Below, piece by piece: positions 2,224 through 59,840 of a DNA stretch of 64,000 nucleotides (its first letter is position 1; each line of letters opens with the position of its first letter). The notes beneath the pieces were generated by a model. It was not told where the DNA came from. It ran no database searches and was given only the letters and a program-made list of their open reading frames with translations. This DNA is from Pseudomonas sp. LRP2-20. GTDB lineage: Bacteria > Pseudomonadota > Gammaproteobacteria > Pseudomonadales > Pseudomonadaceae. The stretch lies in NCBI RefSeq assembly GCF_024349685.1, contig NZ_AP025944.1, positions 2,424,001 to 2,488,000 of the forward strand, given 5' to 3'. The translations under genes and the position numbers were made by a program.

Positions 2224-2267
2224 GGCCGCGTAAGCCTTTAGACATTTGCAAGATAGGAGCAAACAAC

Positions 2268-12103: not shown

Positions 12104-12125
12104 GAGCCATCTCCATGCGGGCCAC

Positions 12126-14466: not shown

Positions 14467-14946
14467 TCAGAGGATGTAGCCGATACCGGCAAGGGCATCG
14501 TCGCTGTTGATCAGGCTGATCACCTTGCGGTGGATCCTGAAGCCGCCTTCAGCGCGGACCAGGGTGTAGGTCAGGTCGGCGCTGTAGTGCTTGAGGCTCT
14601 CCTTGCGGAACTCGCGGATGTTCTGCGCGGCCCGCACGGTGACGTTGACACCGTCGTCGGCCAGCACGCGAAAGCGCGAGATCGTGCGCACGGTGCGTGG
14701 TTGCGGGCTGGTGGAAATCGACTCGCCACCGATCAGCCGCTGCACGCGCAGGCCACGCATGTGGTGGTCGTCGTAGGCGTAGTTCAGGGTGTTCTCGTAG
14801 TCGGTCTCTTTCGGGTTGATCGGGATGATGTAGGTCCCGTTTTCGGTCCACAGGCTCAGCCAGGTGTCGTATTCACCGTGGTCGAGCATGTCGCCTTCCT
14901 GCCAGATGAACGCGGTGACTTCATTGAGCAATTGCAGGTTCATCAT
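14467..14946 (-). CDS. Rieske dioxygenase beta subunit, near-identical copy of IacD
   Basis: The 159-residue beta subunit (about the usual 160-180) differs from IacD at 20784-21263 by one residue that I can see (Q for N at position 5). The start overlaps the alpha-subunit stop as ATGATG, giving ATG at 14946 or 14943. Beta subunits of alpha3-beta3 oxygenases are structural. The DNA match to iacD ends at the stop codon; the sequences just past it (Shine-Dalgarno and next gene) are unrelated. Confidence 0.9.
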   Translation of the reverse strand: MMNLQLLNEVTAFIWQEGDMLDHGEYDTWLSLWTENGTYIIPINPKETDYENTLNYAYDDHHMRGLRVQRLIGGESISTSPQPRTVRTISRFRVLADDGVNVTVRAAQNIREFRKESLKHYSADLTYTLVRAEGGFRIHRKVISLINSDDALAGIGYIL

Positions 14947-16226
14947 TTGGCCTCCGCCGTCATCATCTTCTTCCACTGCTGGTACGCCGCGCGCATGCCG
15001 GTTTCGGCACTGACGTCGGAGACCAGGCCATCTTCGCTGGGCTTCTCGCCCGGCAGGCCGCGGTTGAGCATGATCCACAGGTTCTCGCCGGCATTGGCGC
15101 CTTTCTGCACCCGCTCCCAGGCCTCGGAGTCGTCCGGCGTGCCAAAGCCCATCGGGCCCTGGAAGTGTTCATGCAGACGCAGGCGGTAGCGGTTGGCCGC
15201 AGCCGGGCCGCCGTCCATGGTGATCACCGAGTGATGGATTTCCGTTTCCGTGACCGAGATCGGTTGCAGCACACGGAAGAACGCCATCGAGCAGGCGACG
15301 TTGGGGAACAGGTTGAGGTTGAAGCCCGAACCGCCGACGGCGCGGACGATACGGCGTACCTGCTGCTCCTCGATGCCTTCGTCGCGCAGTTCCGCAGCGA
15401 GGCTTTCAAAACGCTCCGGGATCGGCTTGTCGAGGTCGGCTTCAAGGTCCACCAGCTCGGGAATCATCACCATCACGCTGTGGCCGTTGCCCAGGTCCTC
15501 GACGTAGCCGGGGCCTTTGACGAAGTCGAACAGCTCCAGCGTCTGCTCGTCCACCGAGGACAGGAAGCTCTTGTGCACCAGCGGGAAGTGGTAGGCGTCG
15601 GTGGTGTTTTCCAGCTGGATCTTCCAGTTGCCGGGGAAGCGGAAGCGGTGCTCGCCGGGGACCTTGATGCCGTAGCCGGCGCCTTGCTTCATGAACAGGT
15701 CCATCCACTTCTTCGCCGCACCGAGGAAGTCTTCCAGCGGCTCGATATCATCCTTGAAGGTGGCGAAGACCATGCCGGCGTAGCTTTCGGTGCGCAGGCT
15801 GACCAGCGGCAGCTCGGCCTTGTCGATGCAGTCGCCGTAGCTTTCCGGGTGCGGGATGCCGCGCAGCGAGCCGTCGAGGGCGTAGCCCCAGCCGTGGTAC
15901 GGGCAGACGAAGCTGTTGGTCTTGCCCTTCTTGTGCTCACAGACCGTGGCGCCGCGGTGGCGGCAGCGGTTGAGCAGCACGTTGATAGCTTTCTTGCGGT
16001 CACGCACCACGATCACCGGCTGCTTGCCGATGTAGGTGGTTTTGTAGCTGCCGGCCTCGGGCACTTCGCTTTCGTGGGCGACCCAGATCCAGGTGCTGTG
16101 GAAGATCTTTTCCAGCTCGGCGTCGAACAGCGCCGGGTCGGTGTACAGGGAGGTGTGGACGCGGTCGGGCTGCACCAGCTCGGCCGGGTCGAGCGTCAGG
16201 TTGACGGTGGGGATCAGGTTGCTCAC
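14943..16226 (-). CDS. Rieske dioxygenase alpha subunit, near-identical copy of IacC
   Basis: The 427-residue alpha subunit carries the Rieske motif C88-x-H90...C108-x-x-H111 and the mononuclear iron motif ENTTDAYHFPLVH (H213, H218). It differs from IacC at 19504-20787 in only six residues by eye (positions 2, 7, 8, 12, 57 and 398). Both use a GTG start. Five of the six differences lie in the first 57 residues, so homogenisation seems to stop near the 5' end. It heads a minus-strand operon with beta subunit, reductase, porin and MHS carrier. Confidence 0.9.
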   Translation of the reverse strand: MSNLIPTVNLTLDPAELVQPDRVHTSLYTDPALFDAELEKIFHSTWIWVAHESEVPEAGSYKTTYIGKQPVIVVRDRKKAINVLLNRCRHRGATVCEHKKGKTNSFVCPYHGWGYALDGSLRGIPHPESYGDCIDKAELPLVSLRTESYAGMVFATFKDDIEPLEDFLGAAKKWMDLFMKQGAGYGIKVPGEHRFRFPGNWKIQLENTTDAYHFPLVHKSFLSSVDEQTLELFDFVKGPGYVEDLGNGHSVMVMIPELVDLEADLDKPIPERFESLAAELRDEGIEEQQVRRIVRAVGGSGFNLNLFPNVACSMAFFRVLQPISVTETEIHHSVITMDGGPAAANRYRLRLHEHFQGPMGFGTPDDSEAWERVQKGANAGENLWIMLNRGLPGEKPSEDGLVSDVSAETGMRAAYQQWKKMMTAEAK

Positions 16227-19503: not shown

Positions 19504-20787
19504 GTGACCAACCTGATCCCCGCCATCAACCTGACGGTCGACCCGGCCGAGCTGGTGCAGCCCGACCGCGTCCACACCTCCCTGTACACCGACCCGGCGC
19601 TGTTCGACGCCGAGCTGGAAAAGATCTTCCACAGCACCTGGATCTGGGTCGCCCACGAAAGCGAAGTCCCGGACGCCGGCAGCTACAAGACCACCTACAT
19701 CGGCAAGCAGCCGGTGATCGTGGTGCGTGACCGCAAGAAAGCCATCAACGTGCTGCTCAACCGCTGCCGCCACCGCGGCGCCACGGTCTGTGAGCACAAG
19801 AAGGGCAAGACCAACAGCTTCGTCTGCCCGTACCACGGCTGGGGCTACGCCCTCGACGGCTCGCTGCGCGGCATCCCGCACCCGGAAAGCTACGGCGACT
19901 GCATCGACAAGGCCGAGCTGCCGCTGGTCAGCCTGCGCACCGAAAGCTACGCCGGCATGGTCTTCGCCACCTTCAAGGATGATATCGAGCCGCTGGAAGA
20001 CTTCCTCGGTGCGGCGAAGAAGTGGATGGACCTGTTCATGAAGCAAGGCGCCGGCTACGGCATCAAGGTCCCCGGCGAGCACCGCTTCCGCTTCCCCGGC
20101 AACTGGAAGATCCAGTTGGAAAACACCACCGACGCCTACCATTTCCCGCTGGTGCACAAGAGCTTCCTGTCCTCGGTGGACGAGCAGACGCTGGAGCTGT
20201 TCGACTTCGTCAAAGGCCCCGGCTATGTCGAGGACCTGGGCAACGGCCACAGCGTGATGGTGATGATCCCCGAACTGGTGGACCTGGAAGCCGACCTCGA
20301 CAAGCCGATCCCCGAGCGTTTCGAGTCGCTGGCCGCCGAGCTGCGTGACGAGGGCATCGAGGAGCAGCAGGTGCGCCGCATCGTCCGCGCCGTCGGTGGC
20401 TCGGGCTTCAACCTCAACCTGTTCCCCAACGTCGCCTGCTCGATGGCGTTCTTCCGCGTGCTGCAGCCGATCTCGGTCACGGAAACGGAAATCCACCACT
20501 CAGTGATCACCATGGATGGCGGCCCGGCTGCGGCCAACCGCTACCGCCTGCGCCTGCATGAACACTTCCAGGGCCCGATGGGCTTTGGCACCCCGGACGA
20601 TTCCGAGGCTTGGGAGCGCGTGCAGAAAGGCGCCAATGCCGGCGAGAACCTGTGGATCATGCTCAACCGCGGCCTGCCGGGCGAGAAGCCCAGCGCAGAC
20701 GGCCTGGTCTCCGACGTCAGTGCCGAAACCGGCATGCGGGCGGCGTACCAGCAGTGGAAGAAGATGATGACCGCGGAGGCCAAATGA
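19504..20787 (+). CDS. iacC: Rieske dioxygenase alpha subunit IacC
   Basis: Oxygenase large subunit of the IacCDF system, which acts late in IAA breakdown, on the oxindole/dioxindole acetate stage that leads to catechol. The 427 residues include the Rieske ligands C88/H90 and C108/H111 and the iron-site histidines H213 and H218 in ENTTDAYHFPLVH. GTG start with GAGGA eight bases upstream. It overlaps iacD (ATGATG). A second copy with six residue changes lies inverted at 14943-16226; the stretch between them holds lysR, iacA and iacB. Confidence 0.92.
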   Translation: MTNLIPAINLTVDPAELVQPDRVHTSLYTDPALFDAELEKIFHSTWIWVAHESEVPDAGSYKTTYIGKQPVIVVRDRKKAINVLLNRCRHRGATVCEHKKGKTNSFVCPYHGWGYALDGSLRGIPHPESYGDCIDKAELPLVSLRTESYAGMVFATFKDDIEPLEDFLGAAKKWMDLFMKQGAGYGIKVPGEHRFRFPGNWKIQLENTTDAYHFPLVHKSFLSSVDEQTLELFDFVKGPGYVEDLGNGHSVMVMIPELVDLEADLDKPIPERFESLAAELRDEGIEEQQVRRIVRAVGGSGFNLNLFPNVACSMAFFRVLQPISVTETEIHHSVITMDGGPAAANRYRLRLHEHFQGPMGFGTPDDSEAWERVQKGANAGENLWIMLNRGLPGEKPSADGLVSDVSAETGMRAAYQQWKKMMTAEAK

Positions 20788-47563: not shown

Positions 47564-49276
47564 CTATTCGTACTCCGTTGCGCCGCTGATATGCCGCCCG
47601 GCGACATAGCCGAAGGTCAGTGCCGGCCCGAGGTTGATGCCGCCGGAGGGGTACCAGCCGCCGAACACGCTGGCCATGTCGGTACCGGCCGCATACAGGC
47701 CGCTGATTGGCTGGCCGGCGTCGTTCAGCACGCGGGCGTGGCCGTCGGTGCGCAGGCCGGCGAAGGTGCCGAAGCAGCCGGGCTGCACTTTTACCGCATA
47801 GAACGGGCCGTGCTCGATTGGCGCCACGCAGGGGTTGGGCCCCTTGTGCAGCGGGTCGCCCTGTTTGCGATTGAACGGTGTCGAGCCGCGGCCGAAGGCG
47901 GGATCCTGGCCCTGGCGTGCGTGCAGGTTGAATTCAGCGACCGTGGCGCTCAGCCCGGCGGGGTCGATGCCGCACGCCTGGGCCAGTTGTTCCAGGGTGG
48001 CGCCGCGTTTCAGGTAGCCGCTGCGCAGGTGTGAGCCGATCGGCAGGGGCGCAGGGCGTGCATGGCCGAGGCCGAAGCGGCGCAGGAAGCGGTGGTCGCA
48101 GATCAGCCATGAGCAGGCTTCCTCGCCCTCCGGCACGGCGGCGACCATGGCGGAAACATAGTCGTAATAGCCGTGCGCTTCGTTGACGAAGCGCTTGCCG
48201 TTGGCCAGCACACCGATGATGCCTGGCTTGCCGCGTTCGATGATGTGCGGGAAGTGGCCGACACTGCCGTCGCGGTGTGGCACTTTCGACACGGGCGCCC
48301 AGGCCACCGGCGACTTGAGGTCAGTGGCCACCACACCCCCGGCCGATTCGCCCAGGCGCAGCCCATCGCCGGAGCAGGACGGTGGGGGCAGGGCGAGGTT
48401 GTCATGGCCACTGGCGTCGCGCGGGAACAGCTGCCGGCGCCGAGCGGGGTCGTTGGGGAAGCCGCCTGCGGCCAGCACCACGGCCCTGGCGCGGATTGCC
48501 CGTTCGCCTTGCGCGCTTGCGACCACGGCCCCCAGCACCTTGCCGTCTTCCATCAGCAGGTCCTTGGCCGCTGTCGACTCGATCATCCGCACACCCAGGT
48601 CATCCGCCGACTTCGCCAGCCGTGCCACCAGCGCCACCCCGTTGACCAGGTGCATCGCCCGGCCATGGCGGGCCAGATCGTAGAGGTGGCGAGCGAAGCG
48701 TTTGCACACGTGCAGCAAGGCGCGCGGCGAGCGGGTCATGTTCAAGAAAGCGGCCAGGTCGGCGCCCGCCATGATCGGCATGCCCATGAATGAAGTCTCG
48801 CGCATGGTCTTGCGCAGGCGTGGCAGCAGCGCGCCGAGCTGGCGCGCATCGTACGGCGCGGCAATCACCTGATGGCCGCCGAGGGCAGCGCCGGGTGTGT
48901 CGCCGTGCATGTCGGGGATGCCGTTGCCGTCGGCGAACTGCAGGGCGGTGTGCTGCTCGAAGAAGGCGACCATGTGCGGGCAGGCTTCGAGGAAGGCATC
49001 GACGCGCTCGGCGTTGTAGTGCGTGCCCAGTTCGTGACGCAGGTAGGTACGCGGCTGCTCGATGTCTTCGCTGATGCCGGCGCGCCGGGCCAGCGGGTTG
49101 CGTGGCACCCAGGCCCAGCCCCCGGACCAGGCGGTGGCACCGCCGAGGACCGGGTCCTTCTCTACCAGGATGACCTTCTGCCCGTGCCAGGCGGCCGTGA
49201 CCGCCGCTGCCAGCCCGGCCGCGCCAGAGCCGATGACCAGTACGTCGCAGTCGCTTGGGAAGGGTTCGGCGGGCAT
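47564..49276 (-). CDS. FAD-binding dehydrogenase of the 3-ketosteroid delta1-dehydrogenase family (copy 1)
   Basis: The 570-residue flavoprotein has an N-terminal FAD motif (DVLVIGSGAAGLAAAVTAAW), GGATAWSGGWAWVPRN, RFVNEAHGYYDY (Tyr like KSTD Tyr318) and the C-terminal WYPSGGINLGPALTFGYVAG (the Tyr and Gly pair that polarises the 3-ketone in KSTD). The region matching KSTD Tyr119 reads IPDMHGD here, so that catalytic tyrosine is absent. Divergent from an IclR regulator with a candidate operator between them. Substrate unknown; no other steroid genes are present. GGAG supports the start at 49276. Confidence 0.75.
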   Translation of the reverse strand: MPAEPFPSDCDVLVIGSGAAGLAAAVTAAWHGQKVILVEKDPVLGGATAWSGGWAWVPRNPLARRAGISEDIEQPRTYLRHELGTHYNAERVDAFLEACPHMVAFFEQHTALQFADGNGIPDMHGDTPGAALGGHQVIAAPYDARQLGALLPRLRKTMRETSFMGMPIMAGADLAAFLNMTRSPRALLHVCKRFARHLYDLARHGRAMHLVNGVALVARLAKSADDLGVRMIESTAAKDLLMEDGKVLGAVVASAQGERAIRARAVVLAAGGFPNDPARRRQLFPRDASGHDNLALPPPSCSGDGLRLGESAGGVVATDLKSPVAWAPVSKVPHRDGSVGHFPHIIERGKPGIIGVLANGKRFVNEAHGYYDYVSAMVAAVPEGEEACSWLICDHRFLRRFGLGHARPAPLPIGSHLRSGYLKRGATLEQLAQACGIDPAGLSATVAEFNLHARQGQDPAFGRGSTPFNRKQGDPLHKGPNPCVAPIEHGPFYAVKVQPGCFGTFAGLRTDGHARVLNDAGQPISGLYAAGTDMASVFGGWYPSGGINLGPALTFGYVAGRHISGATEYE

Positions 49277-49298
49277 TGCGGTATCTCCTGCATTATTA

Positions 49299-49318
49299 TT
49301 GGAACCTGATTCCACAAT
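49299..49318. promoter_or_regulatory. Candidate IclR operator, flavoprotein-1/iclR space
   Basis: TTGGAACCTGATTCCACAAT is a near-palindrome (TGGAA...TTCCA). It matches at 16 of 20 positions a site before the Gfo/Idh/MocA gene at 50326-50345. It lies just upstream of the flavoprotein gene start. A related TGGAATC half-site appears again near 49416 before the iclR start. Confidence 0.55.
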
Positions 49319-49461
49319 ATTCTTTTTATGCGGGCGGCACTGCAAGGCCAAGTACCAACTTTCGGTCGATTACCGGACACTTCAGTGCCTGGTGGGCACG
49401 ACGACTATCGACGATATGGAATCATCTTCTAGAATTCGGCAAATTTTCAGGGATCCGCATC

Positions 49462-50238
49462 ATGGCTGGTAGTCAGATCGAACGCGCCTTCAGTCTTGTT
49501 GAAAGCCTCACTGGCGAGCCGCACGGCTTGCCGCTGCAAACCTTGGCCGAGCGCCTGGACATTCCCAAGAGCGCCTGCCACCGCATGCTCACCGAGCTGG
49601 TGCGCCTGGGTTACGTGCGGCAGAACCGCGACAACAGCCGCTATCAACTGTCCGCCAAGCTGGTGGCGATGGGCTTTCGCTACCTGTCGAGCAGCGGCGC
49701 CGACATCATTCAGCCGATTCTCGACCGCCTGGCCCAGGACAGCGGCGAACTGGTGCGCCTTGGGGTGATCGAAGGCAACCGCCAGACCTGGATTGCCAAG
49801 TCCCAGGGTGCCCGCTCCGGGCTGCGCTACGACCCCGACATGGGGCGTGACGCGCCGCTGTTCTATACCGCTTCCGGGCATGCCTGGCTGGCCAGCCTGA
49901 GCGATGAAGACGCGCTGCAGATGGTGCTGCGCCAAGGCATTGCCGACCCCGCCCAGTTCGGCCCCAATGCGCCGCGCTCGACCGATGACTTGCTGGCTTA
50001 CCTGCAGCGCGCCCGTGAGCGCGGTTATGCCTGGGTCGAGCAGACCTCGGCCATCGGCACTTCAGCTCTGGCCGCCGTGGTGCGCCGCCCGCAGAGCCAC
50101 GAGGTGATCGGCGTGCTCAGCATTGCCGGCCCTAGCGCCCGCCTGGCGCAAACCCGCCTGGCCGAGCTGGCGCCGCTGCTGCTGGCGGCGGCAGAAGAGC
50201 TGTCGGCTGCCAGCCGGGCAAGCGAATTGTTTGCCTGA
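49462..50238 (+). CDS. IclR-family transcriptional regulator (first)
   Basis: The 258-residue protein has an N-terminal winged helix (LPLQTLAERLDIPKSACHRM) and an IclR effector domain (about 80-250). It is divergent from flavoprotein 1 and is followed 139 bp later by the Gfo/Idh/MocA and TIM-barrel genes, both of whose promoters carry the same candidate operator. The ATG at 49462 (MAGSQIERAF) is used; the frame is open further upstream but no homologous N-terminus is seen there. Confidence 0.85.
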   Translation: MAGSQIERAFSLVESLTGEPHGLPLQTLAERLDIPKSACHRMLTELVRLGYVRQNRDNSRYQLSAKLVAMGFRYLSSSGADIIQPILDRLAQDSGELVRLGVIEGNRQTWIAKSQGARSGLRYDPDMGRDAPLFYTASGHAWLASLSDEDALQMVLRQGIADPAQFGPNAPRSTDDLLAYLQRARERGYAWVEQTSAIGTSALAAVVRRPQSHEVIGVLSIAGPSARLAQTRLAELAPLLLAAAEELSAASRASELFA

Positions 50239-50325
50239 TGTGCATTTCTGGTCGGTAATCGCACAGTCTGTGGGGGAGGTCGTTCTGAAAAGCTGAACTT
50301 GGTTCTACATTGTGTAGTGTCGATT

Positions 50326-50345
50326 CTGGAATCTGGTTTCACAAT
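50326..50345. promoter_or_regulatory. Candidate IclR operator before the Gfo/Idh/MocA gene
   Basis: CTGGAATCTGGTTTCACAAT, the second copy of the motif at 49299-49318, sits 33 bp before the TTG start of the dehydrogenase gene. Consensus of both: TGGAAYCTGRTTYCACAAT. Confidence 0.55.
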
Positions 50346-50377
50346 CGGCGCCACAATAACGACAAGAGGACAGTGCG

Positions 50378-51430
50378 TTGAACTCACCCCTACGAATCGC
50401 CCTGATCGGCGCCGGCATCATGGGCCGCCAGCATTACCAGCACCTGCGCGAGCTGCCGCAAGCCCAGCTGTGCGCGGTGGCAGACCCAGGCCCACAGGCT
50501 GAAGCTTTCGCTGCCGAGTGCGGGGTTGCCTGCTTCGCCGATCACCGGCAGATGCTTGAGCAGGCGCGGCCCGATGCGGTGATCGTCGCCAACCCTAACA
50601 ACCTGCATGTGGCCTGCGCCCTGGATTGCGTCGAGGCCGGTGTACCGGTGCTGGTGGAAAAGCCGGTGGGTGTGCACCTCGATGAAGTCCGTGCACTGGT
50701 CGAGGCCTCGCGCCGCCACGGCGTGCCAGTGCTGGTCGGCCATCACCGGCGGCACAACCCGCTGATCGCCAAGGCCCACCAGGTGATTGGCGAAGGCAAG
50801 CTGGGGCGGTTGATCAACGTCACCGCGCTGTGGCAGCTGCAAAAACCCGACAGCTACTTCGAAACACCCTGGCGCCGCGAGCCGGGGGCGGGCTTTCTGC
50901 TCACCAACCTGATCCACGACCTCGACCTGCTGCGCCACTTGTGCGGCGAGGTGGTGCAGGTGCAGGCCTTCACCCGCAACGACGTGCGCGGCTTCGCCAA
51001 TGAAGACAGCGCGGCGGTGCTGCTGCAGTTCGCCAACGGTGCGCTGGGCAGTCTGACCGGTTCCGACGCCGTAGCCGCGCCGTGGAGCTGGGAACTGGAC
51101 TCCGGCGAAAGCCCGATCTACCCGCGTCAGGATGGCCAGCCTTGCTACCTGCTGGCCGGCACCCAGGGTGCGCTGAGCATTCCGCAGCTCAAGCGCTGGC
51201 AATACGCCGAGGCGGGATCTGGCTGGCACACACCGCTGTTGCAGAGCGAGGAAGCCATCCCCGCAGGCGAGGCGCTGACCTTGCAGTTGCAGCACTTCAT
51301 CCGCGTCGCCCAGGGCACTGAAGCGCCGTTGATCGATGCCGCCGACGGTGGCCGCACCCTGGCCCTTGTCGAAGCGATCCGCCAGGCCGCCGAAACCGGC
51401 CGGGCCTGCGCGCCAGCGCTCATCGCCTGA
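50378..51430 (+). CDS. Gfo/Idh/MocA-family NAD(P) oxidoreductase
   Basis: The 350-residue protein has an N-terminal Rossmann motif (RIALIGAGIMGRQHYQHLRE), the EKP motif of the family (VLVEKPVGVHLDEV) and a C-terminal beta-sheet substrate domain with LLTNLIHDLDLLRHLCGEVV (conserved HDxD/H). Members oxidise sugars, inositols and similar polyols. The TTG start at 50378 is supported by AAGAGGA seven bases upstream; no ATG fits. The TIM-barrel gene follows by 24 bp, a pairing seen in inositol-type pathways. Confidence 0.8.
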   Translation: MNSPLRIALIGAGIMGRQHYQHLRELPQAQLCAVADPGPQAEAFAAECGVACFADHRQMLEQARPDAVIVANPNNLHVACALDCVEAGVPVLVEKPVGVHLDEVRALVEASRRHGVPVLVGHHRRHNPLIAKAHQVIGEGKLGRLINVTALWQLQKPDSYFETPWRREPGAGFLLTNLIHDLDLLRHLCGEVVQVQAFTRNDVRGFANEDSAAVLLQFANGALGSLTGSDAVAAPWSWELDSGESPIYPRQDGQPCYLLAGTQGALSIPQLKRWQYAEAGSGWHTPLLQSEEAIPAGEALTLQLQHFIRVAQGTEAPLIDAADGGRTLALVEAIRQAAETGRACAPALIA

Positions 51431-51454
51431 TTTTTTCGTCTTTAGGTAAATGAC

Positions 51455-52270
51455 ATGACCGACCGAATCTTTTCCCTGGCTGCCCTGACGGTGCTCGAAC
51501 TTTCCCCGCCAGACATGGTGGAAGCCGCCGCCCGTGCCGGATACAGCCATGTGGGCCTGCGCCTGGTGCCGGCCACCGAGCAGGAGCAGCACTTCCCGCT
51601 GGTGGCTGACGCCGACCTGCGCCGGCAGACCCAGGCGCGCCTGCGCGACACCGGTATCAAGGTGCTCGACCTGGAAATCCTCCGGCTCAAGGCCGACACC
51701 TGCGTGGCCGATTTCGAAGCGATACTGGCTGTCGGTGCCGAGCTGGGCGGCAGCGAGTTGCTGGTGGCTGGCAACGACCCGGACGAAGCGCGCCTTACCG
51801 CAAATTTTGCCGAGCTGTGCGACCTGGCTGCCGGCTATGGCATCTACCCGCACCTGGAGTTCATGCCCTGGACCGACGTGCGCGACCTGCGCCAGGCCAT
51901 GCGCGTGGTGGCCAACGCCGACCGGGCCAATGGCTGCGTGCTGGTGGATGCCTTCCACTTCAACCGCTCGCGTTCTTCGCTGGACGACCTGGCGCAGTTG
52001 CCCGCGCAGTGCATGCGCTATGCCCAGCTGTGCGACGTCGCCGGCCCGGTGCCGGCCGACATGGACGAGATCCTGCGCCAGGCGCGCAACGAACGGCGCT
52101 TCCCGGGGGAGGGCGATGCCGACCTGGTGGGGTTGTTGCGTGGTTTGCCGGCAACCGTACCGTTGAGCCTGGAGATCCCCACCCGGCAGCTGATGGAGCA
52201 GGGCATCAGTGGTGAGCAGCGTGCGCGCATGGCACTGGAGAAGGCCAAGGCCGTACTCGCCAGCGTCTGA
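51455..52270 (+). CDS. Xylose-isomerase-like TIM-barrel protein
   Basis: The 271-residue barrel of the sugar-phosphate isomerase/AP-endonuclease-2 superfamily has the metal-ligand pattern E135 (LEFMPWTD), D165 and H168 (LVDAFHFNRS), Q191 and E240 (SLEIPTRQ). Relatives include IolE, hydroxypyruvate isomerase and 3-dehydroshikimate dehydratase. Together with the neighbouring polyol dehydrogenase it could isomerise or dehydrate a cyclitol- or shikimate-like keto compound; the exact reaction cannot be told. It is the last gene of the rightward group. Confidence 0.75.
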   Translation: MTDRIFSLAALTVLELSPPDMVEAAARAGYSHVGLRLVPATEQEQHFPLVADADLRRQTQARLRDTGIKVLDLEILRLKADTCVADFEAILAVGAELGGSELLVAGNDPDEARLTANFAELCDLAAGYGIYPHLEFMPWTDVRDLRQAMRVVANADRANGCVLVDAFHFNRSRSSLDDLAQLPAQCMRYAQLCDVAGPVPADMDEILRQARNERRFPGEGDADLVGLLRGLPATVPLSLEIPTRQLMEQGISGEQRARMALEKAKAVLASV

Positions 52271-52330
52271 GCTCATAAAAGGTGTCCGGGGTTAGTAGAC
52301 CACTACATGGTGTGCTTGCCTTGGGGTGTG

Positions 52331-52398
52331 TAGCGCCTATGAGATCGAGCGCCGCCCGCGATGCGCCGAGCGGGCGGCGCTCGATCTCATAGGCTCTA
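52331..52398. repeat. Palindromic REP-like element of the GAGCGCCGCCCG family
   Basis: Arms of 28 bp (52331-52358 and 52371-52398, one mismatch) share GATCGAGCGCCGCCCG with the 55-bp inverted repeat at 10493-10713. A degenerate ordinary REP unit follows at about 52463-52508. The 419-bp space holds no gene. Confidence 0.8.
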
Positions 52399-52642
52399 CA
52401 TACCCCACGGCGAATACATCCGAGTCCACATCAGCCCCAAGGTAGGTCCATCCGCTTCGCGGCCCATCGCCGCAGTTCGTCGCCACGACAAGCGCGGCTC
52501 CCACAGGGATCGCGCCAGCTTCAAGATATTGAGCAAGAGAGTAACTCCCACAAGTACTGCACAGTGCTCGGGGCCGGTGGTTTACCCGTGGCAGCCGGCC
52601 GCCGGCGATCAGGCCATTGCAGGAACCCCCCGGACACGCATG

Positions 52643-52666
52643 AAAAAAGGGGCCCGTCAGGGCCCC
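52643..52666 (-). terminator. Rho-independent terminator of the MFS gene
   Basis: On the minus strand a GGGGCCC-TGAC-GGGCCCC hairpin is followed by TTTTTT, 23 bp past the MFS stop. This is the clearest terminator in the window and ends the leftward operon of the flavoprotein locus. Confidence 0.88.
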
Positions 52667-52689
52667 ATCGAGGTAACTGGAATCCGGGC

Positions 52690-54015
52690 TTATTGGCTCT
52701 CGAGCTTGCGCGGCGCCATGAAGTACATCCAGATCAGCGCCAGGAAGTACATGGCCGGGATCATGGTGAACAGCACGGCATAGTTGTTGTTGGTCGCCAT
52801 CAGCACGCTGCCGACGATCTGCGTCATGAACATCCCGCCAATCGCCGCGCACATGCTGGCGAAACCGAATACCGTGCTGATCAGGTGCTTGGGCGTGTAG
52901 TCCATCACCAGGCTCCAGATATTCGCCGTCCACGCTTGATGCGCGCCGACCGCCAGGGCGATGGCCAGCACTGCGATCCACAACCCGCTGGCATGGGCGG
53001 CGAAGGTCACGCTGACCATGGTGCAGGCGAAAATCAGCATCGATACCAGGCGCGCGGTGGTGGCGCGCACGCCGCGGCCGATCAGCCACGAAGAGAGGAT
53101 GCCGCCGCCGATGCTGCCGAAGTCTGCGGTCAGCCAGATCAGCATCAGCGGGATGCCCATCTGGGTCACGCTGATGCCCAGGCTGTACTGCTGGTTGAGG
53201 AACGGCGGCAGCCAGTACAGGTAGAACCAGAACACCGGCGCGGTAATCGCGTAGGCCACGGCGAAGGCCCAGGTGCCGCGCATGCCCAGGATGCGGCTGA
53301 AGGGCAGGCGCGCCACTTCAGGCTCGGCGTCTTGCTGGATGTAGTCGAGCTCGCTCTGGCGTACCCGTGGGTGCTCCTCCGGGTTGAAGTACTTCAGGCC
53401 CCAGAACACCAGCCAGACCAGGCCCAGGCAGCCCATGGCGATGAACGCGGCCTGCCAGCCCCAGACCGTGAGGATCAGCGGCAGCAGGGCCGGGGTGACC
53501 ATGGCGCCGACGTTGGTGCCGGCATTGAAAAAACCGGTGGCGATGGCGCGTTCGCCGGCAGGGAACCACAGGCGCACGGTTTTCACGCAGGCCGGGTAGT
53601 TGGCCGCTTCGGTCAGGCCGAGGATGAAGCGACAGACCATGAAGCCGGCAGCCGAGGTGGCCAGGCCGTGGGCGCCGGTGGCCAGGCTCCACAGCAGCAC
53701 GGCGGCGAAGAAGGCGCGCTTGACGCCGACCTTGTCGATCAGCCGGCCCTGCAGCACGAAGCCGACCGCATAGCCGACCTGGAACCAGAAGTTGATGTTG
53801 GCGTAGTCCATCGCCGTCCAGCTCATGGCCTTGGCCAGTTCCGGCTGCATGATGCCGAGCGCGGCGCGGTCGATGTAGTTCAAGGTGGTGGCGAAGAACA
53901 CCAGGGCGAGCATGCCCCAACGGGTATTGCCGACGGCGAAGGCGCCACGGATCTTGTCGCCGATGCCGGCGGAGGGCAGCCGTGGGCTGGCGGTAGTGAG
54001 CTTGGAGGGGGTCAT
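52690..54015 (-). CDS. MFS transporter, anion:cation symporter (ACS) family
   Basis: The 441-residue, twelve-helix carrier has the ACS-type beginning RWGMLALVFFATTLNYIDRA and FILGLTEAANYPACVKTVRL (the conserved helix 4-5 motif GxxEAxxxP). The family imports hexonates, glucarate, phthalate and similar acids. It lies at the end of the leftward group of shikimate-dehydrogenase-like, flavoprotein and NIPSNAP genes and is followed by a strong terminator. A palindrome like that near the second iclR gene precedes it. The start at 54015 is chosen over a longer opening at 54093. Confidence 0.82.
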   Translation of the reverse strand: MTPSKLTTASPRLPSAGIGDKIRGAFAVGNTRWGMLALVFFATTLNYIDRAALGIMQPELAKAMSWTAMDYANINFWFQVGYAVGFVLQGRLIDKVGVKRAFFAAVLLWSLATGAHGLATSAAGFMVCRFILGLTEAANYPACVKTVRLWFPAGERAIATGFFNAGTNVGAMVTPALLPLILTVWGWQAAFIAMGCLGLVWLVFWGLKYFNPEEHPRVRQSELDYIQQDAEPEVARLPFSRILGMRGTWAFAVAYAITAPVFWFYLYWLPPFLNQQYSLGISVTQMGIPLMLIWLTADFGSIGGGILSSWLIGRGVRATTARLVSMLIFACTMVSVTFAAHASGLWIAVLAIALAVGAHQAWTANIWSLVMDYTPKHLISTVFGFASMCAAIGGMFMTQIVGSVLMATNNNYAVLFTMIPAMYFLALIWMYFMAPRKLESQ

Positions 54016-54143
54016 ATCCTGGTCGTTTCTTGAAATTGTAATGGACTGCTGTTTCTCGAACGTGACGTCGCCCCAGGCAGGGGCTACACGCAAGGCCGGT
54101 GCATGGTGGGCAGGGAATCGGGGACCGTCAATTCGCTGGAGGA

Positions 54144-54161
54144 GGCTATCGTTCGATAACC
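54144..54161. promoter_or_regulatory. Candidate operator of the second IclR regulator, MFS promoter
   Basis: GGCTATCGTTCGATAACC is an 18-bp near-perfect palindrome 129 bp before the MFS start. Its GGTTATCG half recurs in the space between the shikimate-dehydrogenase-like gene and the second iclR (59031-59038). Confidence 0.5.
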
Positions 54162-54180
54162 GAACAATAGTGCGCCACGC

Positions 54181-55851
54181 TCACAGGCTGCCCAGCGCTT
54201 TGCCGGCCAGATAGCCGAAGGTCATGCCCGGCCCCAGGGTGATTCCACCGCTAGGATAATGCCCGGCCATCACGCTGTGCATGTCGTTGCCGACCGCGAA
54301 CAGGCCGGGTATCGGCTGCTGGGCGTGGTCGAGCACGCGTGCCGCAGCATCGGTGTGCAGGCCGGCGAAGGTGCCGAGGCTGCCGGGGAGCAGTTTCACC
54401 GCATGGAAGGGCCCGTGCAGCAACGGCCGCAGAGAGGGGTTGGGCCTCTGCAGCGGTTCGCCCTGGGCCTTGTTGTAGGCCGAGGCGCCGCGCTGGAAGG
54501 CTGGGTCTTCGCCGTGCGCGGCATGCCGATTGAACTCGGCCACGGTGCGTTGCAGTTGTTCGGCGGCGATCCCGCAGCGCTGTGCCAGTTCAGCCAGGGA
54601 CCGGCCGCTGAACAGATAGCCGCGTCGCTGATAGAAGCCGGTCGGGAAAGGGAAGGGCTTGGCCCAGCCGATACCGTAGCGCCGTTGTGCGGCATGGTCG
54701 CAGATCAGCCACGCTTCGTGCGCTTCGCCCGCTGGTGTGGCGGCGAACAGCGCGTTCATGAAGTCGTGGTAGCAATCGGCTTCGTTGACGAACCGGCGGC
54801 CATCGCGGCGCACGGCGATGAAGCCGGGCTTGGCGCGGTCGATCAGGTGCGGGAAATGGCCAATGCTGCCGTCGCGGCGTGGCACGCGGGACACCGGTGC
54901 CCAGGCACCGGCCTGAGCCAGCGTACCGACGCGCGCGCCGACCTGTTCGGCCAGGCGCAGGCCATCACCGCTGTTTTCCAGCGGGGCAGCGCAGTGGTGC
55001 TGGTCGCCATCGGGCGCATGGGGCATCAGCTGGGCGATGCGCTGGCGATCGTGGGCAAAGCCGCCACAGGCCAGGACCACGCCACGGCGTGCCTGGATCA
55101 CCTGGCCATCGGCGAATTGCGCGCCGTCGATGCGCCTATCGCCGAGCAGGCGGGTGGCCGCTTTGTCGGTGAGCACTGTCACGCCAAGGTCCAGGGCACT
55201 GCGCAACAGGCGCGCGACCAGGGCATTGCCGTTGACCAGCTGCAGGCCGCGGCGGTACAGCAGCAGGTCGCGGCCATGGCGCAGCAGGCGCTTGCCAACG
55301 TGCAGGGCGGCCTTGGGCGAGCGCCGTGCATTGAAGAAGGCGGCCATGTCCGCGCCACCGGCGATGCCCATGCCCGCCAGGCTGACGATGTCCAGTGGCG
55401 GGCGCAGCCTGTGCAGCCACGGGCCCAGCAAGCGACCGTCGAACGGCAGCGCGCACAGCGAGCGCCCGCCACGGGCGCTGCCGTCGCCTTCATGCATGTC
55501 GGGCATCTTGCTGCCGGACTGGAACTGCACGGCAGTGTGTTGCTGGAAGAACGCCACCATCTCCGGGCCATGCTGCAGGAAGCCGCGCTGGCGAGGGTCC
55601 AGTTCGGTGACATGGGTCTGGGCGCGCAGGTAGCGTTCTGGTGCGTCGTCGATTTCGATGATGCCTTCGGCGATGGCCAGCGGGTTGCGCGGGATCCACA
55701 GCCAGCCCCCTGACCAGGCACTGGTGCCGCCAAGCTGGCTGGCCTTTTCCGCGACGATCACCTTCAGGCCGTGATGCGCGGCGGTAACGGCGGCTGCCAG
55801 GCCAGAGGCGCCGGAGCCGATGACAAGTACGTCACATTCGAGGGGTTGCAT
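54181..55851 (-). CDS. FAD-binding dehydrogenase of the 3-ketosteroid delta1-dehydrogenase family (copy 2)
   Basis: The 556-residue flavoprotein has the FAD motif DVLVIGSGASGLAAAVTAAH, GGTSAWSGGWLWIPRNPLAI, RFVNEADCYHDF and HYPSGGITLGPGMTFGYLAG. Like copy 1 it lacks the KSTD Tyr119 equivalent (MPDMHEGDGSA in that place), and the two resemble each other more than they do copy 3. ATG at 55851 with AAGGA eight bases upstream. A REP doublet separates it from the NIPSNAP gene upstream, and the MFS carrier follows 165 bp later. Confidence 0.75.
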   Translation of the reverse strand: MQPLECDVLVIGSGASGLAAAVTAAHHGLKVIVAEKASQLGGTSAWSGGWLWIPRNPLAIAEGIIEIDDAPERYLRAQTHVTELDPRQRGFLQHGPEMVAFFQQHTAVQFQSGSKMPDMHEGDGSARGGRSLCALPFDGRLLGPWLHRLRPPLDIVSLAGMGIAGGADMAAFFNARRSPKAALHVGKRLLRHGRDLLLYRRGLQLVNGNALVARLLRSALDLGVTVLTDKAATRLLGDRRIDGAQFADGQVIQARRGVVLACGGFAHDRQRIAQLMPHAPDGDQHHCAAPLENSGDGLRLAEQVGARVGTLAQAGAWAPVSRVPRRDGSIGHFPHLIDRAKPGFIAVRRDGRRFVNEADCYHDFMNALFAATPAGEAHEAWLICDHAAQRRYGIGWAKPFPFPTGFYQRRGYLFSGRSLAELAQRCGIAAEQLQRTVAEFNRHAAHGEDPAFQRGASAYNKAQGEPLQRPNPSLRPLLHGPFHAVKLLPGSLGTFAGLHTDAAARVLDHAQQPIPGLFAVGNDMHSVMAGHYPSGGITLGPGMTFGYLAGKALGSL

Positions 55852-55882
55852 GGATCAATCCTTATGAGTGCAAGCTCGGTCG

Positions 55883-56049
55883 CTGTGGGAGCCGCGCTTG
55901 CCGGCGATGGGCCGCGCAGCGGCCCCGGCTTACAGATGTTCGTTGCGGGTCGAAATCTGCCGTTCGAAAGTGATTGCTGTCGACCCATGGCAGACGCAAG
56001 AATGTTGGGGCCACTTCGTGGCCCATCGCCGGCAAGCGCGGCTCCCACA
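55883..56049. repeat. REP doublet between the NIPSNAP gene and flavoprotein 2
   Basis: Facing units of about 43 bp (55883-55926 and 56007-56049) contain CTGTGGGAGCCGCGCTTGCC and its complement, extended by GATGGGCC-type stems. They occupy most of the 226-bp space inside the leftward operon. Confidence 0.85.
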
Positions 56050-56077
56050 TGGCTCCCGCTAACCTTGGGGAAACAGC

Positions 56078-56398
56078 TTATTGCAGCGGCGAAAAGCCCG
56101 TGGGCCGCAGCAGCCGCGAGTGCAGCTGCAGCACCGCGCCCAGCTCCCGGTTGCGCCGCGAGAACTCAGCCCAGCGTGGGTCGGCGGCCATCGCCGCACG
56201 GCGCGCCATGCGCTCGTCGAGGCTGACGTAGGCCCACATGTGCACCACCTGGTTGACCTCGCCGAATTCGCTGGTGAAGAAGCCCACCAGGTTGCCCAGG
56301 TGCTCGCGCTGCACCTCCAGCGCATGGCTCTGGTACAAGGCCAGCCAGTCGCCCATCTTCAGCGGGTCGAGGGTGTAGGTTCTCAATTCGTAATACAT
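56078..56398 (-). CDS. NIPSNAP-family protein
   Basis: The 106-residue protein begins MYYELRTYTLDPLKMGDWLA and has GNLVGFFTSEFGEVNQVVHM and a later DERMARRAAMAADPRWAEFS, the standard NIPSNAP pattern of a small ferredoxin-like dimeric barrel. Such proteins are often found in degradation operons, without a defined reaction. Its start overlaps the end of flavoprotein 3 by 16 bases, so it is coupled to it. Confidence 0.82.
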   Translation of the reverse strand: MYYELRTYTLDPLKMGDWLALYQSHALEVQREHLGNLVGFFTSEFGEVNQVVHMWAYVSLDERMARRAAMAADPRWAEFSRRNRELGAVLQLHSRLLRPTGFSPLQ

Positions 56399-58110
56399 GC
56401 GGGTTGCTCCGGGTGGTTGGTTGGCGCCTGCAGGCGCTCGGCGATATGGCTGGCGGCGAGCCAGCCGAAGGTGAGGGCGGGGCCGAGGGTGATACCGGGG
56501 CCAGGGTAGGTGCCGTTCATCATTGAATTCATGTCGTTGCCCACGGCATACAACCCGGCAATCGGCGCGCCGCTGCGGTTCAGCACGTTGGCATTGGTGT
56601 CGGTGACCAGGCCGCGTGCCGAGCCGAGGTCGCCAGTATGGATGCGGATGGCGTAGAACGGCGCCTTGGTCAGCGGTGCCAGGCACGGGTTGGGCTGGTG
56701 CTGAGGGTCGCCCATGTAGCGGTTGTAGCTGTTGCCGCCCTTGCCGAACGCACGGTCGATGCCATTGCGGGCGTCGGCATTGAAGTGCTCCAGCGTCTGT
56801 TGCAGGGCCTGCGGGTCGACCCCGATAGCCGCCGCCAGGGCGGGCACGCTGGCGGCGTGCTGCAGGTAGCCGGCGGCAATCAGCGCCGAGTTGTCCACCG
56901 GCTTTGGCCGCGCCAGGCCCAGGCCATAACGGTTCATCGCCTCGGCATCACAGATCAGCCAGCAGTGGCCGATACCATTGGCGAACATGGTCTGCACGAA
57001 GTGGTGGTACGAGTTGGATTCGTTGACGAAGCGCCGCCCGGCCGGGTCGACCGCGATCACCCCCGGCTTGGCGCGGTCGGTGACCAGGTGCGGAAAGCGC
57101 TCGCGCTGGCCGTTGGCGTGGCGTAATTCGGACACCGGCGCCCAGAAGAAATTGGCCGCCAGGCCTTCGCCCTGCGCCGCCGCAACCTTTTCGCCCAGGC
57201 GCAGGGCAGCGCCATCGTTGCTGGCCGGCGACATGCTCAGGTGGGCTGATGCGGCGTGCGGGCGATAGCTCGCGGCCAGCTTGCCGGCGGCAAAGCCACC
57301 CATGGCGCAGACCACGCCGCCACGTGCCTGCACCCGTATCAGTCGGCCTTCGCGCTGCACGATCACGCCGCTTACCACGCCGCGTTCGACAATCAGTTCC
57401 TGTGCCTCGCTGCGTAGCCAAAGTTCACTGCCGTGGGCAAAGGCGCTGCTGGCCAGGCGCGCGATCAGGGCGTTGCCGGTGGTCAGGCGGGTCCCGCGCG
57501 GGTGGCGCAGGCGGTCCCGCGCATAACGTGCCATCAGCTTCAGGCAATGCCACAGCGAGGCGGGCGAGCGGCGCAGGTTGAGGAAGTGCTGGATGTCCAC
57601 GCGGTTGACCATCATGCCGCCGAACAGCAGCATGCCCGGCGGCGGCATCTGCAGGTCCTTGAAGCGTGAGCCAAGATGACGACCGTCGTACTCGACCATT
57701 TCCAGGGCACGGCCGAACTCGGTGGCGCCGGGTTCGTCGGGGTAGTAGTCCGGGGAATGCGGGCGCAGGCCATAGCGCAGTTCGGTATTGCGTTCCAGCC
57801 AGCGCAGGGCCTGGTGACCCTGCTCGATGAAGGCATCCACCAGTGCCGGGTTGTAACCGGCGCCGATGATCGTCTTCAGGTAGGTGCGCATGGCCTCGGG
57901 GGAGTCCTCGGCACCGGCCGCCTGTGCCTGATCGCTGCCGTAGATCCACACCGCACCGCCGGAAATCGCCGAGGTGCCGCCAAAGCGCTCGGCCTTTTCC
58001 ACCACCAGCACCTTCAGCCCGCGGCGGGCCGCCGTGGCTGCCGTGGCGAAGCCCCCGGCACCGCTGCCGAGGACCACCAGGTCGAACACTGCTTGTTCGC
58101 TAGCGCTCAT
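56383..58110 (-). CDS. FAD-binding dehydrogenase of the 3-ketosteroid delta1-dehydrogenase family (copy 3)
   Basis: The 575-residue flavoprotein has the FAD motif DLVVLGSGAGGFATAATAAR, GGTSAISGGAVWIYGS, RFVNESNSYHHF and TYPGPGITLGPALTFGWLAA. Unlike copies 1 and 2 it has HSPDYYPDEPGA where KSTD carries Tyr119, so all four KSTD active-site positions (Tyr119, Tyr318, Tyr487, Gly491) seem occupied. It is therefore the best candidate for true 1,2-dehydrogenation next to a ring ketone. It starts four bases after the shikimate-dehydrogenase-like gene. Confidence 0.78.
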   Translation of the reverse strand: MSASEQAVFDLVVLGSGAGGFATAATAARRGLKVLVVEKAERFGGTSAISGGAVWIYGSDQAQAAGAEDSPEAMRTYLKTIIGAGYNPALVDAFIEQGHQALRWLERNTELRYGLRPHSPDYYPDEPGATEFGRALEMVEYDGRHLGSRFKDLQMPPPGMLLFGGMMVNRVDIQHFLNLRRSPASLWHCLKLMARYARDRLRHPRGTRLTTGNALIARLASSAFAHGSELWLRSEAQELIVERGVVSGVIVQREGRLIRVQARGGVVCAMGGFAAGKLAASYRPHAASAHLSMSPASNDGAALRLGEKVAAAQGEGLAANFFWAPVSELRHANGQRERFPHLVTDRAKPGVIAVDPAGRRFVNESNSYHHFVQTMFANGIGHCWLICDAEAMNRYGLGLARPKPVDNSALIAAGYLQHAASVPALAAAIGVDPQALQQTLEHFNADARNGIDRAFGKGGNSYNRYMGDPQHQPNPCLAPLTKAPFYAIRIHTGDLGSARGLVTDTNANVLNRSGAPIAGLYAVGNDMNSMMNGTYPGPGITLGPALTFGWLAASHIAERLQAPTNHPEQPACITN

Positions 58111-58114
58111 GGTT

Positions 58115-58924
58115 TCAGATCTCCAGCGGTGTGACGCCCATGAAGGCGCCGAGGTGGCCCAGTTGGGCGAAGGCCATTTGCGCTCCGGTCTGGATCGGGC
58201 AGCCGCGTTCGCGGGCCTGGTGCAGCAGCGGGGTGATTTCCGGCGAGGTGACCACGTCGGCCACCAGTGTGGCGGCCTTCAGGGTCTGCAGCAGTGCGGC
58301 GGGCAAAGGCAGCTCGCCGCTGTTGCCCATGCCGACCGGGGAGGCATTGACGACCAGGTCGAAGTCTTCCAGTGAGCGGTAAAGGGTGGCGACCTGCAGG
58401 GCTGGGAAGGCATTGCCGAGCACCTCACCCAGCGCAGCGACGCGTTCGGCGCTGGGGTCGCTGAGGGTGATGCTGGCAATGCCCGCTTCTCCCAGTGCAT
58501 AGGCGATCGCACTGCCGACCCCGCCGCAGCCCACCACCAGCGCGCGCTTGCCGCTGGCCACGAAGCCTTGCAGGCGGGCAGCCCCGAGAAAGCCCGCGCC
58601 ATCGACGTTGTCGCCCAGCAGGCGGCCGTCGCGTTCGCGGCGGATCACATTGACCGAGCCCAAGGCCTGGGCGCGCTCGCTGAGCCCGTCCAGCCGTGTA
58701 GCCAGGGCCTGCTTGTACGGCACGGTGACCACGCAGCCGCGCAGGTTGCGCCAACCGCGCAGGTGCTCGACAAAGGCGCCCAGCGCCGTTTCCTCCAGGT
58801 CGATGGGGAGCATCGCCAGGTCGCGGGCGTTGTTGGCGAACCAGGTGTTGAAGTTTTCCGGCGACTTCACCTGGGCGATAGGCGAACCGACGATGGCGAC
58901 CAGTTCTGTCGAACCTCGGATCAT
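58115..58924 (-). CDS. Shikimate dehydrogenase-family protein with altered substrate pocket
   Basis: The 269-residue protein has the AroE two-domain layout: N-terminal substrate domain (VAIVGSPIAQVKSPENFN; GCVVTVPYK) and Rossmann domain (ALVVGCGGVGSAIAYALGEA). Catalytic Lys (K71) and Asp (D108) and the C-terminal Gln are kept, but the shikimate-binding Ser14, Asn59 and Thr101 of E. coli AroE are Val here (V19, V65, V107). A dedicated non-shikimate substrate is likely; related catabolic or RifI-type enzymes are known in Pseudomonas. The start at 58924 has GGAGGT upstream; divergent from the second iclR. Confidence 0.8.
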   Translation of the reverse strand: MIRGSTELVAIVGSPIAQVKSPENFNTWFANNARDLAMLPIDLEETALGAFVEHLRGWRNLRGCVVTVPYKQALATRLDGLSERAQALGSVNVIRRERDGRLLGDNVDGAGFLGAARLQGFVASGKRALVVGCGGVGSAIAYALGEAGIASITLSDPSAERVAALGEVLGNAFPALQVATLYRSLEDFDLVVNASPVGMGNSGELPLPAALLQTLKAATLVADVVTSPEITPLLHQARERGCPIQTGAQMAFAQLGHLGAFMGVTPLEI

Positions 58925-58992
58925 GCTGACCTCCGTTATGGCTGTTGTTGTGGAGGCAAGCCTGGCGCAGGGCGGTTGCAGCAACAATGCGC

Positions 58993-59038
58993 TTATCGGA
59001 TGTTTGATACGATAATCGCAGTCACCTTGCGGTTATCG
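58993..59038. promoter_or_regulatory. Candidate operator of the second IclR regulator, divergent space
   Basis: TTATCG (58993), CGATAA (59010) and GGTTATCG (59031) are arranged as inverted half-sites in the 145-bp space between the shikimate-dehydrogenase-like gene and the second iclR. The same half-sites form a palindrome before the MFS gene at 54144-54161. Confidence 0.5.
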
Positions 59039-59069
59039 CATTAACTGCCACTTTCCAAGAGCCGCGTAC

Positions 59070-59840
59070 ATGTCCCAGCCCGAGATCCATCCCCGCGACC
59101 TGATCGCCGGCCTGCAGAAAGGCCTGGCGCTGATGCAACTGTTCAGTGCCGAGCAACCCCGCCTGAGCGTGCCCCAGGCGGCCAGGCTGTCGGGCCTGAC
59201 CCCCAGCGCCGCACGGCGTTTTCTGCTGACGCTGGTGCACGAAGGCTTCGCCGAGACCGACAACCGCCATTACTGGCTGACCCCCAAGGCCCTGCGCATC
59301 GGCCAGGCCTATGTCGATTCGGCGCAGTTGCCGCGCATGCTGCGGCCGATCGTCGAGCAGGTGGCGCGGCAGACTCAGGAGCATGTGTCGGTGGGCAGTC
59401 GTGATGGTGACGAGATCATTCACCTGGTGCGCAGCCGCTACAGCCACATTGCTTCGTTGTCGATCCGCCCCGGGTCGCGGGTGCCGATGTATTGCACGGC
59501 AAGCGGCCGGGTCTGGTTGGCGTGGCTGGAGGAGGGGCAGCGCGAGGAATACTTTGCGCGCAACCCGCTGAATGCGCTGACGCCATACACCCAGACCGAC
59601 CGGGCGCTGTTGCAGGCGGAGTTGCAGCGGGTGAGGGCGCAGGGCTACAGCATCGTCGATCAGGAATACGAAATCGGCATGCGTGTGCTGGGTGTGCCGC
59701 TGCTCGACCGCAGCGGCCAGTTGAAGGCGACCTTGACCATCACCACCCATGCGTCGCGGTTGAGCATCGACGAGATGCGCCTGCGCTACCTGGCGACGCT
59801 GTATGAGGCGCAGGCGTTGCTCAAACCGGTGCTGGATTGA
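59070..59840 (+). CDS. IclR-family transcriptional regulator (second), PcaR/PobR-like
   Basis: The 256-residue protein has the N-terminal winged helix LSVPQAARLSGLTPSAARRF and an effector domain with the PcaR/PobR/CatR-type stretch YSHIASLSIRPGSRVPMYCT, ASGRVWLAW and IVDQEYEIGMRVLGVPL. This subgroup usually senses aromatic or hydroaromatic acids such as 3-oxoadipate, 4-hydroxybenzoate or quinate-type compounds. It is divergent from the shikimate-dehydrogenase-like gene and should control the leftward operon. Confidence 0.87.
   Translation: MSQPEIHPRDLIAGLQKGLALMQLFSAEQPRLSVPQAARLSGLTPSAARRFLLTLVHEGFAETDNRHYWLTPKALRIGQAYVDSAQLPRMLRPIVEQVARQTQEHVSVGSRDGDEIIHLVRSRYSHIASLSIRPGSRVPMYCTASGRVWLAWLEEGQREEYFARNPLNALTPYTQTDRALLQAELQRVRAQGYSIVDQEYEIGMRVLGVPLLDRSGQLKATLTITTHASRLSIDEMRLRYLATLYEAQALLKPVLD

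Follow-up and report, generated by a model that had tools for sequence, protein, structure and literature searches.

In the soil-type bacterium Pseudomonas sp. LRP2-20, three flavoproteins related to 3-ketosteroid dehydrogenases (KstDs) are encoded next to a member of the shikimate dehydrogenase family (AroEL), a Gfo/Idh/MocA-family dehydrogenase (Gfo), a TIM-barrel protein, a NIPSNAP-family protein, a carrier, and two IclR-family regulators. On balance, we think that this locus serves to catabolize quinate/shikimate-like hydroaromatic carboxylic acids, which would be aromatized to protocatechuate or another hydroxybenzoate. The substrates are probably reduced or deoxygenated relatives of shikimate (an acid from plants), such as dihydroshikimate or 3,4-dihydroxycyclohexanecarboxylate. 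The locus occupies positions 47564-59840 of the 64,000 nucleotides that we analyzed (the window), which are positions 2424001-2488000 of a single-contig genome of 6.03 Mb. Positions below are in the window unless stated otherwise.

Organization and conservation of the locus

The original prediction, which was made from the DNA alone, listed ten genes, and all of them were located. It also treated them as one grouped locus. The genes are indeed together, but they form two units, each with a separate IclR regulator. The core unit lies on the minus strand and reads, from a divergent promoter region, AroEL (58115-58924), the flavoprotein KSTD_A (56383-58110), NIPSNAP (56078-56398; PF07978, 125.8 bits), the flavoprotein KSTD_B (54181-55851), and an organic-acid-type MFS carrier (52690-54093; PF07690, 172 bits; TIGR00893, 208 bits, under the cut-off of 395). 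Its probable regulator, IclR2, is transcribed in the opposite direction (59070-59840, plus strand). AroEL and KSTD_A are separated by 4 bp, the start of NIPSNAP overlaps the stop of KSTD_A by 16 bp, and the next two gaps are 226 bp (NIPSNAP to KSTD_B) and 87 bp (KSTD_B to MFS). In the second unit (module 2), IclR1 (49462-50238; PF01614/PF09339; computed start), the inositol-dehydrogenase-like Gfo (50378-51430; PF01408), and the TIM barrel (51455-52270; PF01261) are on the plus strand, and the third flavoprotein, KSTD_C (47564-49276, minus strand), is divergent from IclR1. A TTG start for KSTD_C at 49351 was also listed, but we judged it less likely.

We scanned for relatives of the locus with an alignment of AroEL, using one genome per species, and kept the best 80 of 105 relatives. 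The full core (IclR2-AroEL-KSTD_A-NIPSNAP-KSTD_B) is present in 71 of these 80 loci, so the grouping of these genes is beyond chance. Individually, AroEL was found in 80 loci, IclR2 in 79, KSTD_A and NIPSNAP in 73 each, and KSTD_B in 72; contig ends truncate several of the loci (such as L033, L039, L044, L047, L062, L064, and L077), and absences there make these counts lower bounds. The genes of module 2 and the carrier are more variable: even with distant relatives included, there were matches to MFS in 30 loci, TIM in 24, KSTD_C in 20, Gfo in 17, and IclR1 in 15. The core occurs in Pseudomonas, Azotobacter, and Azomonas and also in records from Klebsiella, Raoultella, Kluyvera, and Enterobacter. 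A search for the AroEL gene by itself in 298 genomes sampled from the genus of the window found it in 34 (E of 1e-70 or better).

Two of the relatives link the units. In Raoultella (L088) and Kluyvera (L089), the genes AroEL-KSTD_A-NIPSNAP-KSTD_B-TIM-PcaK-like carrier-Gfo form a single run on one strand with short gaps, and the Gfo proteins in these runs are 54% identical to ours. Therefore, Gfo and TIM are tied to the core. (The likeness of this carrier to PcaK is based on a relative from L086, which scored 504 bits; the cut-off is 770.)

Other relatives are less complete. L008, from one of those 34 genomes (G023), encodes an AroEL at 66% identity with no match to IclR2 or a KSTD within 19 kb. 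In L084, from Aquamicrobium, a 427-amino-acid frame lies between AroEL and KSTD_A (10823-12106 of that locus, plus strand), and KSTD_B, IclR2, and the palindrome described below were not found there.

Similarity of the enzymes to characterized proteins

By its sequence, AroEL belongs to the RifI2 class of the shikimate dehydrogenase superfamily. Its nearest solved relative is 4k28, which we take to be RifI2 of P. putida and whose physiological substrate we believe is not settled. The match is full length and ungapped (269/269 residues, 447.8 bits), and no family-level difference was seen. Every listed score of AroEL against the AroE-type models of NCBIfam was below the model's cut-off. If we assume the residue numbering and roles of E. 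coli AroE, then the catalytic dyad of Lys71 and Asp108 is kept in 80/80 sequences, as are three other residues typical of the family (Thr, Asn, and Gln). Two pocket positions differ: the position of Ser14 is Val in all 80, and where the NxTxPxK motif has Asn, there is Val (74 sequences) or Leu (6 sequences). These changes are consistent with a substrate other than shikimate.

The three KSTDs are full-length FAD_binding_2 proteins (PF00890; 323 bits for KSTD_A, 317 for KSTD_B, and 373 for KSTD_C), and they account for half of the genome's six proteins with scores over 300 bits. They are distinct, as had been claimed: A and B are 41% identical, A and C are 42% identical, and B and C are 54% identical. 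Family models call them merely FAD-dependent oxidoreductases; NF004789 (cut-off 747) gave 1033 bits for KSTD_C, 758 bits for KSTD_B, and 653 bits, which is under the cut-off, for KSTD_A. The closest solved relatives of KSTD_A are 3-ketosteroid dehydrogenases (7p18, 336 bits; 4c3x, 211 bits).

We compared the KSTDs and their relatives to KstD1 at four positions, whose numbers we worked out manually from the 4c3x chain by subtracting 20 from the chain number; KSTD_A was also compared with 7p18 and 8joj. Sequences below 60% identity or with 900 or more amino acids were excluded. The counts include loci L006 and L007, and one row may be doubled, as L006 and L051 are apparently from the same contig. 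Tyr318, Tyr487, and Gly491, which we take to be the base and the ketone-binding site, are present in every aligned row: 67/67 for KSTD_A (2 of 69 were gapped), 62/62 for KSTD_B (2 of 64 were gapped), and, for KSTD_C, 17/17 for Tyr318 and 11/11 for the other two residues (6 of 17 were gapped). The fourth residue, Tyr119, is kept in 68/68 aligned rows of KSTD_A, which thus has all four. At this position, KSTD_B has Met (47 of 64 rows) or Phe (17) and KSTD_C has Met (11 of 17 rows, including the protein in the window) or Ile (6); neither ever has Tyr. Because KSTD_B and KSTD_C deviate at Tyr119, we dropped the idea that all three are standard KstDs. Separately, the match to KSTD_A or KSTD_B is split in two in L040, L060, and L064, perhaps because of frameshifts or assembly errors.

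The TIM barrel belongs to a group that includes QuiC1, IolI, and Lmo2234, and we propose that it is a dehydratase or a keto isomerase. Of the ten active-site residues of QuiC1 that are given in PMC7442255, it keeps eight in 20/20 orthologs examined, with Leu136 replaced by Met and Ser206 by Ala. Five other barrels in the genome have 2 to 7 of the ten, and none of the five has Arg64 or Leu97, both of which are present in the TIM barrel. The QuiC1 equivalog NF042435, which models a two-domain protein and has a cut-off of 1200, matched only residues 110-241, at 42 bits. IolI and Lmo2234 are equally close, and we dropped the identification of the protein as QuiC1 outright. Elsewhere in the genome (L134, 3256-8108; genome positions 2752255-2757107), a short-chain dehydrogenase gene is followed by the gene for a barrel that is paralogous to TIM (42% identity), and a LysR regulator is encoded on the opposite strand; this is perhaps another ring-polyol route.

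Quinate genes and carriers near related loci

In 17 of the 80 loci, QuiC1, quinate/shikimate dehydrogenase, or AroQ is encoded in the flank, within about 10 kb. Representatives of these flanking proteins scored above the cut-offs when scanned (QuiC, 1318 bits versus 1200; the shikimate dehydrogenase subfamily, 467 versus 235; AroQ, 207 versus 170). None of the three is among the genes of the locus in LRP2-20. In this genome, QuiC1 is at genome position 3712710 and quinate/shikimate dehydrogenase is at 3833567, both over 1 Mb away (AroQ was not searched for genome-wide). Because these genes are elsewhere in the genome, quinate itself probably does not need this locus. Two adjacent Dioxygenase_C genes at genome positions 5188873-5190037 could encode the subunits of protocatechuate dioxygenase, but they are unconfirmed candidates.

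The carriers beside the core in related loci are, by family resemblance, of organic-acid, aromatic-acid, or shikimate types. Because these resemble acid carriers, a plain cyclitol is less likely as the substrate than a ring carboxylic acid. Six loci from Burkholderiaceae have IclR2 and AroEL with an MHS carrier and without KSTDs. The MHS carrier that we scanned, from L041, is 37-39% identical to those of these six loci and scored 337 bits against the shikimate transporter model, below the cut-off of 538. Five of the six Burkholderiaceae genomes encode KSTDs elsewhere, at 49% identity or less; in the sixth, none was found at E of 1e-100. The window of LRP2-20 also encodes a relative of the shikimate transporter, a metabolite:H+ symporter (10805-12103, minus strand; 360 bits versus the same cut-off), about 35 kb from the locus.

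Regulation

IclR2 is a member of the PcaR/PcaU/PobR family (TIGR02431, 311.3 bits versus a cut-off of 284.75), and IclR1 is under that cut-off (111.1 bits). Between IclR2 and AroEL lies a putative operator array (58988-59040) with three copies of TGCGATNATCGCA, at 58988 (two mismatches), 59008 (one mismatch), and 59028 (one mismatch), which are 20 bp apart. Allowing one mismatch, this palindrome is found upstream of AroEL in 78 of the 80 loci, and in 72 of those 78, there is a half-site exactly 20 bp from it. Among 14 other spacings that we tried, only 21 bp gave a match, in one locus. The arrangement here is like that of PcaU and PobR sites, in which a palindrome is combined with one more repeat in a divergent promoter. 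IclR2 probably controls the core operon by binding these tandem operators, presumably in response to an inducer.

Across 1.6 Mb of loci, there were just 12 matches to the palindrome (at most one mismatch) outside the gap upstream of AroEL. In L044, one match is just before the gene for a PcaK-like carrier and another is before a relocated IclR2. QuiC1 is the nearest labeled gene for none of the 12 matches, even though 16 of the 80 loci contain QuiC1. Thus, control of the core seems to be separate from that of the quinate genes, even when they are neighbors. In the entire genome of LRP2-20, there are 16 places that match at one mismatch, and two of them are at this locus.

Proposed pathway

In the pathway that we favor, the carrier would import a ring acid, and a ring hydroxyl would be oxidized to a ketone by AroEL in the core or by Gfo in module 2. 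The QuiC-like TIM barrel may dehydrate beta-hydroxy substrates, or it may shift the ketone, as IolI does. The KstD-like flavoproteins would then remove hydrogen from the bonds beside the ketone until the ring tautomerizes to a phenol, which is most likely protocatechuate and would enter the beta-ketoadipate pathway. NIPSNAP is perhaps a tautomerase or isomerase. By our own calculation, the formulas can be balanced: converting a dihydroxycyclohexanecarboxylic acid (C7H12O4) to protocatechuate (C7H6O4) takes three two-electron oxidations, which might be carried out by AroEL, KSTD_A, and KSTD_B, and converting dihydroshikimate (C7H12O5) to protocatechuate takes one dehydration (TIM) and two oxidations (Gfo or AroEL, and one KSTD).

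This is broadly the scheme that the original prediction had outlined, with ketone formation followed by dehydration, flavin-dependent desaturation, and aromatization. The enzyme families, the KstD residues, and the QuiC1-like residues of the TIM barrel are consistent with those steps. The sequences show the gene content and order, the conserved residues and palindrome, and the neighborhood, and from there the substrate, the order of the steps, the product, and the role of NIPSNAP are inferred. The predicted cyclitol- or quinate-like ring needs to be narrowed: the quinate/shikimate-like setting of 17/80 loci agrees with it, but a ring carboxylic acid is more plausible than a plain cyclitol, and quinate itself probably does not need the locus.

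Where would the substrates come from? Lactic acid bacteria are reported to reduce quinate to dihydroshikimate (Carr et al. 1957, as cited in PMC10558750), and dihydroshikimic acid is named as a product from chlorogenic acid in an excerpt of PMC7427622. As a tentative and rather doubtful extension, the locus might encode an undescribed salvage pathway for reduced shikimates: fermentative bacteria would convert quinate/shikimate to dihydroshikimate and dihydroxycyclohexanecarboxylates, and aerobic bacteria would re-aromatize them to protocatechuate. This would involve oxidation by AroE-type and inositol-dehydrogenase-type enzymes, QuiC-like dehydration, paired KstD-type desaturation, and a dedicated PcaU-like regulator.

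As in quinate/shikimate catabolism, the proposed route would lead from a ring acid to protocatechuate by way of a dehydrogenase and a TIM-barrel dehydratase that depends on a metal. Flavin desaturases, which this locus adds, have no part in the classical route.

Alternative explanations

A close known system is the Chc pathway of Sinomonas cyclohexanicum, in which a dehydrogenase and two consecutive desaturases lead to hydroxybenzoate and then to protocatechuate (Yamamoto et al. 2021, summarized in a passage of PMC9795900). Our proposed route shares the conversion of a hydroxyl to a ketone followed by two consecutive desaturations, and the ChcC2 model NF053677 gives all three KSTDs 452 to 518 bits. 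The locus might therefore be for the aerobic degradation of hydroxycyclohexanecarboxylates (naphthenic acids) to 3- or 4-hydroxybenzoate, by the Chc pathway itself or one very similar to it. We consider this improbable. The best scores of the KSTDs against the equivalog models for ChcC1 (NF053676, 339 bits) and ChcC2 (518 bits) are well under the cut-offs of 1000 and 900, no P450 was found among the scanned proteins of the locus, and the dehydrogenases are AroE-type and Gfo-type. Also, the AroE-type enzyme and the TIM barrel are not in the scheme in the excerpt of PMC9795900, NIPSNAP is a further addition, and some of the loci have quinate neighbors. A dehydrogenase with two desaturases is already known from cyclohexanecarboxylate degradation; it is the shikimate-family partners that set this locus apart. 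That the pathway is new, as the original prediction proposed, is not established. The parts are of known kinds, and their combination and the exact substrate appear to be uncharacterized: among the matches listed in the open-access literature, no title or abstract opening described this cluster.

The other alternatives seem less probable still. If the substrate were a cyclitol, with no carboxylate, then Gfo would be an inositol dehydrogenase, the TIM barrel would be an IolI-like keto-inositol isomerase, and the KSTDs would desaturate a ketocyclitol. However, Gfo scored just 149 bits against TIGR04380, far under its cut-off of 355, and the AroE-family enzyme in the core, the acid-type carriers, the quinate genes near 17/80 loci, and the Arg64 and Leu97 of the TIM barrel all argue against this, so we give it little weight. 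We give a similarly low weight to a route from shikimate to gallate, in which AroEL would form 3-dehydroshikimate and a KSTD would dehydrogenate it. An AroE-type gene does adjoin a KSTD gene, and by our reasoning, 3-dehydroshikimate is a cyclic enone that the KstD mechanism could desaturate. But one desaturase would suffice for this route, yet two are kept in 71/80 loci, and AroEL deviates from shikimate dehydrogenases at the two conserved positions.

Finally, the KSTDs could act on 3-ketosteroids, in side reactions with steroids or bile acids. The nearest solved relatives of KSTD_A are 3-ketosteroid dehydrogenases, and the KSTDs share a fold family and Tyr318, Tyr487, and Gly491 with KstD1 (4c3x; also 7p18), although Tyr119 is in KSTD_A alone. 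As the original prediction had stated, there are no steroid genes among the scanned proteins of the locus. The only steroid marker that we tried genome-wide (Mce and KshA were not searched for) was TIGR03213, for 2,3-dihydroxybiphenyl-type extradiol dioxygenases, to which we assume the steroid enzyme HsaC is close; it had two weak matches and none over the cut-off. No steroid context was seen in the related loci either, and 17/80 have quinate genes. On the basis of gene context, we rejected the steroid explanation, which is very unlikely.

NIPSNAP relatives and other genes in the window

We also considered whether NIPSNAP is a dedicated partner of KSTDs, but this was not supported. Of 335 plasmid records with a match, 25 were listed, and we examined seven of these. 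One (H22) lacks annotation, and the six annotated records have no KSTD among their annotated genes. (H1, from Klebsiella, represents the same cluster and is excluded from this count.) In contrast, in L059 and L060, a NIPSNAP relative (34-36% identity) adjoins a second KSTD (47% identity to KSTD_C), along with PcaK-like carriers and a short-chain dehydrogenase. This set might be a related module that uses a different type of dehydrogenase.

At 996-3545, the window encodes muconate cycloisomerase and catechol 1,2-dioxygenase, both over the cut-offs. It also encodes two 427-amino-acid relatives of Rieske dioxygenase alpha subunits, at 14943-16226 (minus strand) and 19504-20787 (plus strand), which score 215 bits against the benA model, below its cut-off. 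The two are 98.6% identical as proteins and 96.5% identical as DNA. They are in opposite orientations about 3.3 kb apart, which looks like a recent inverted duplication.

Implications

If our proposal is correct, it would provide a function for a conserved gene set, whose core is in 71 of 80 related loci and whose AroEL is in 34 of 298 genomes of the genus. It would also provide a function for an AroE-family enzyme of solved structure and for KstD-like flavoproteins. Enzymes that aromatize ring ketones could serve to produce phenols from saturated acids.

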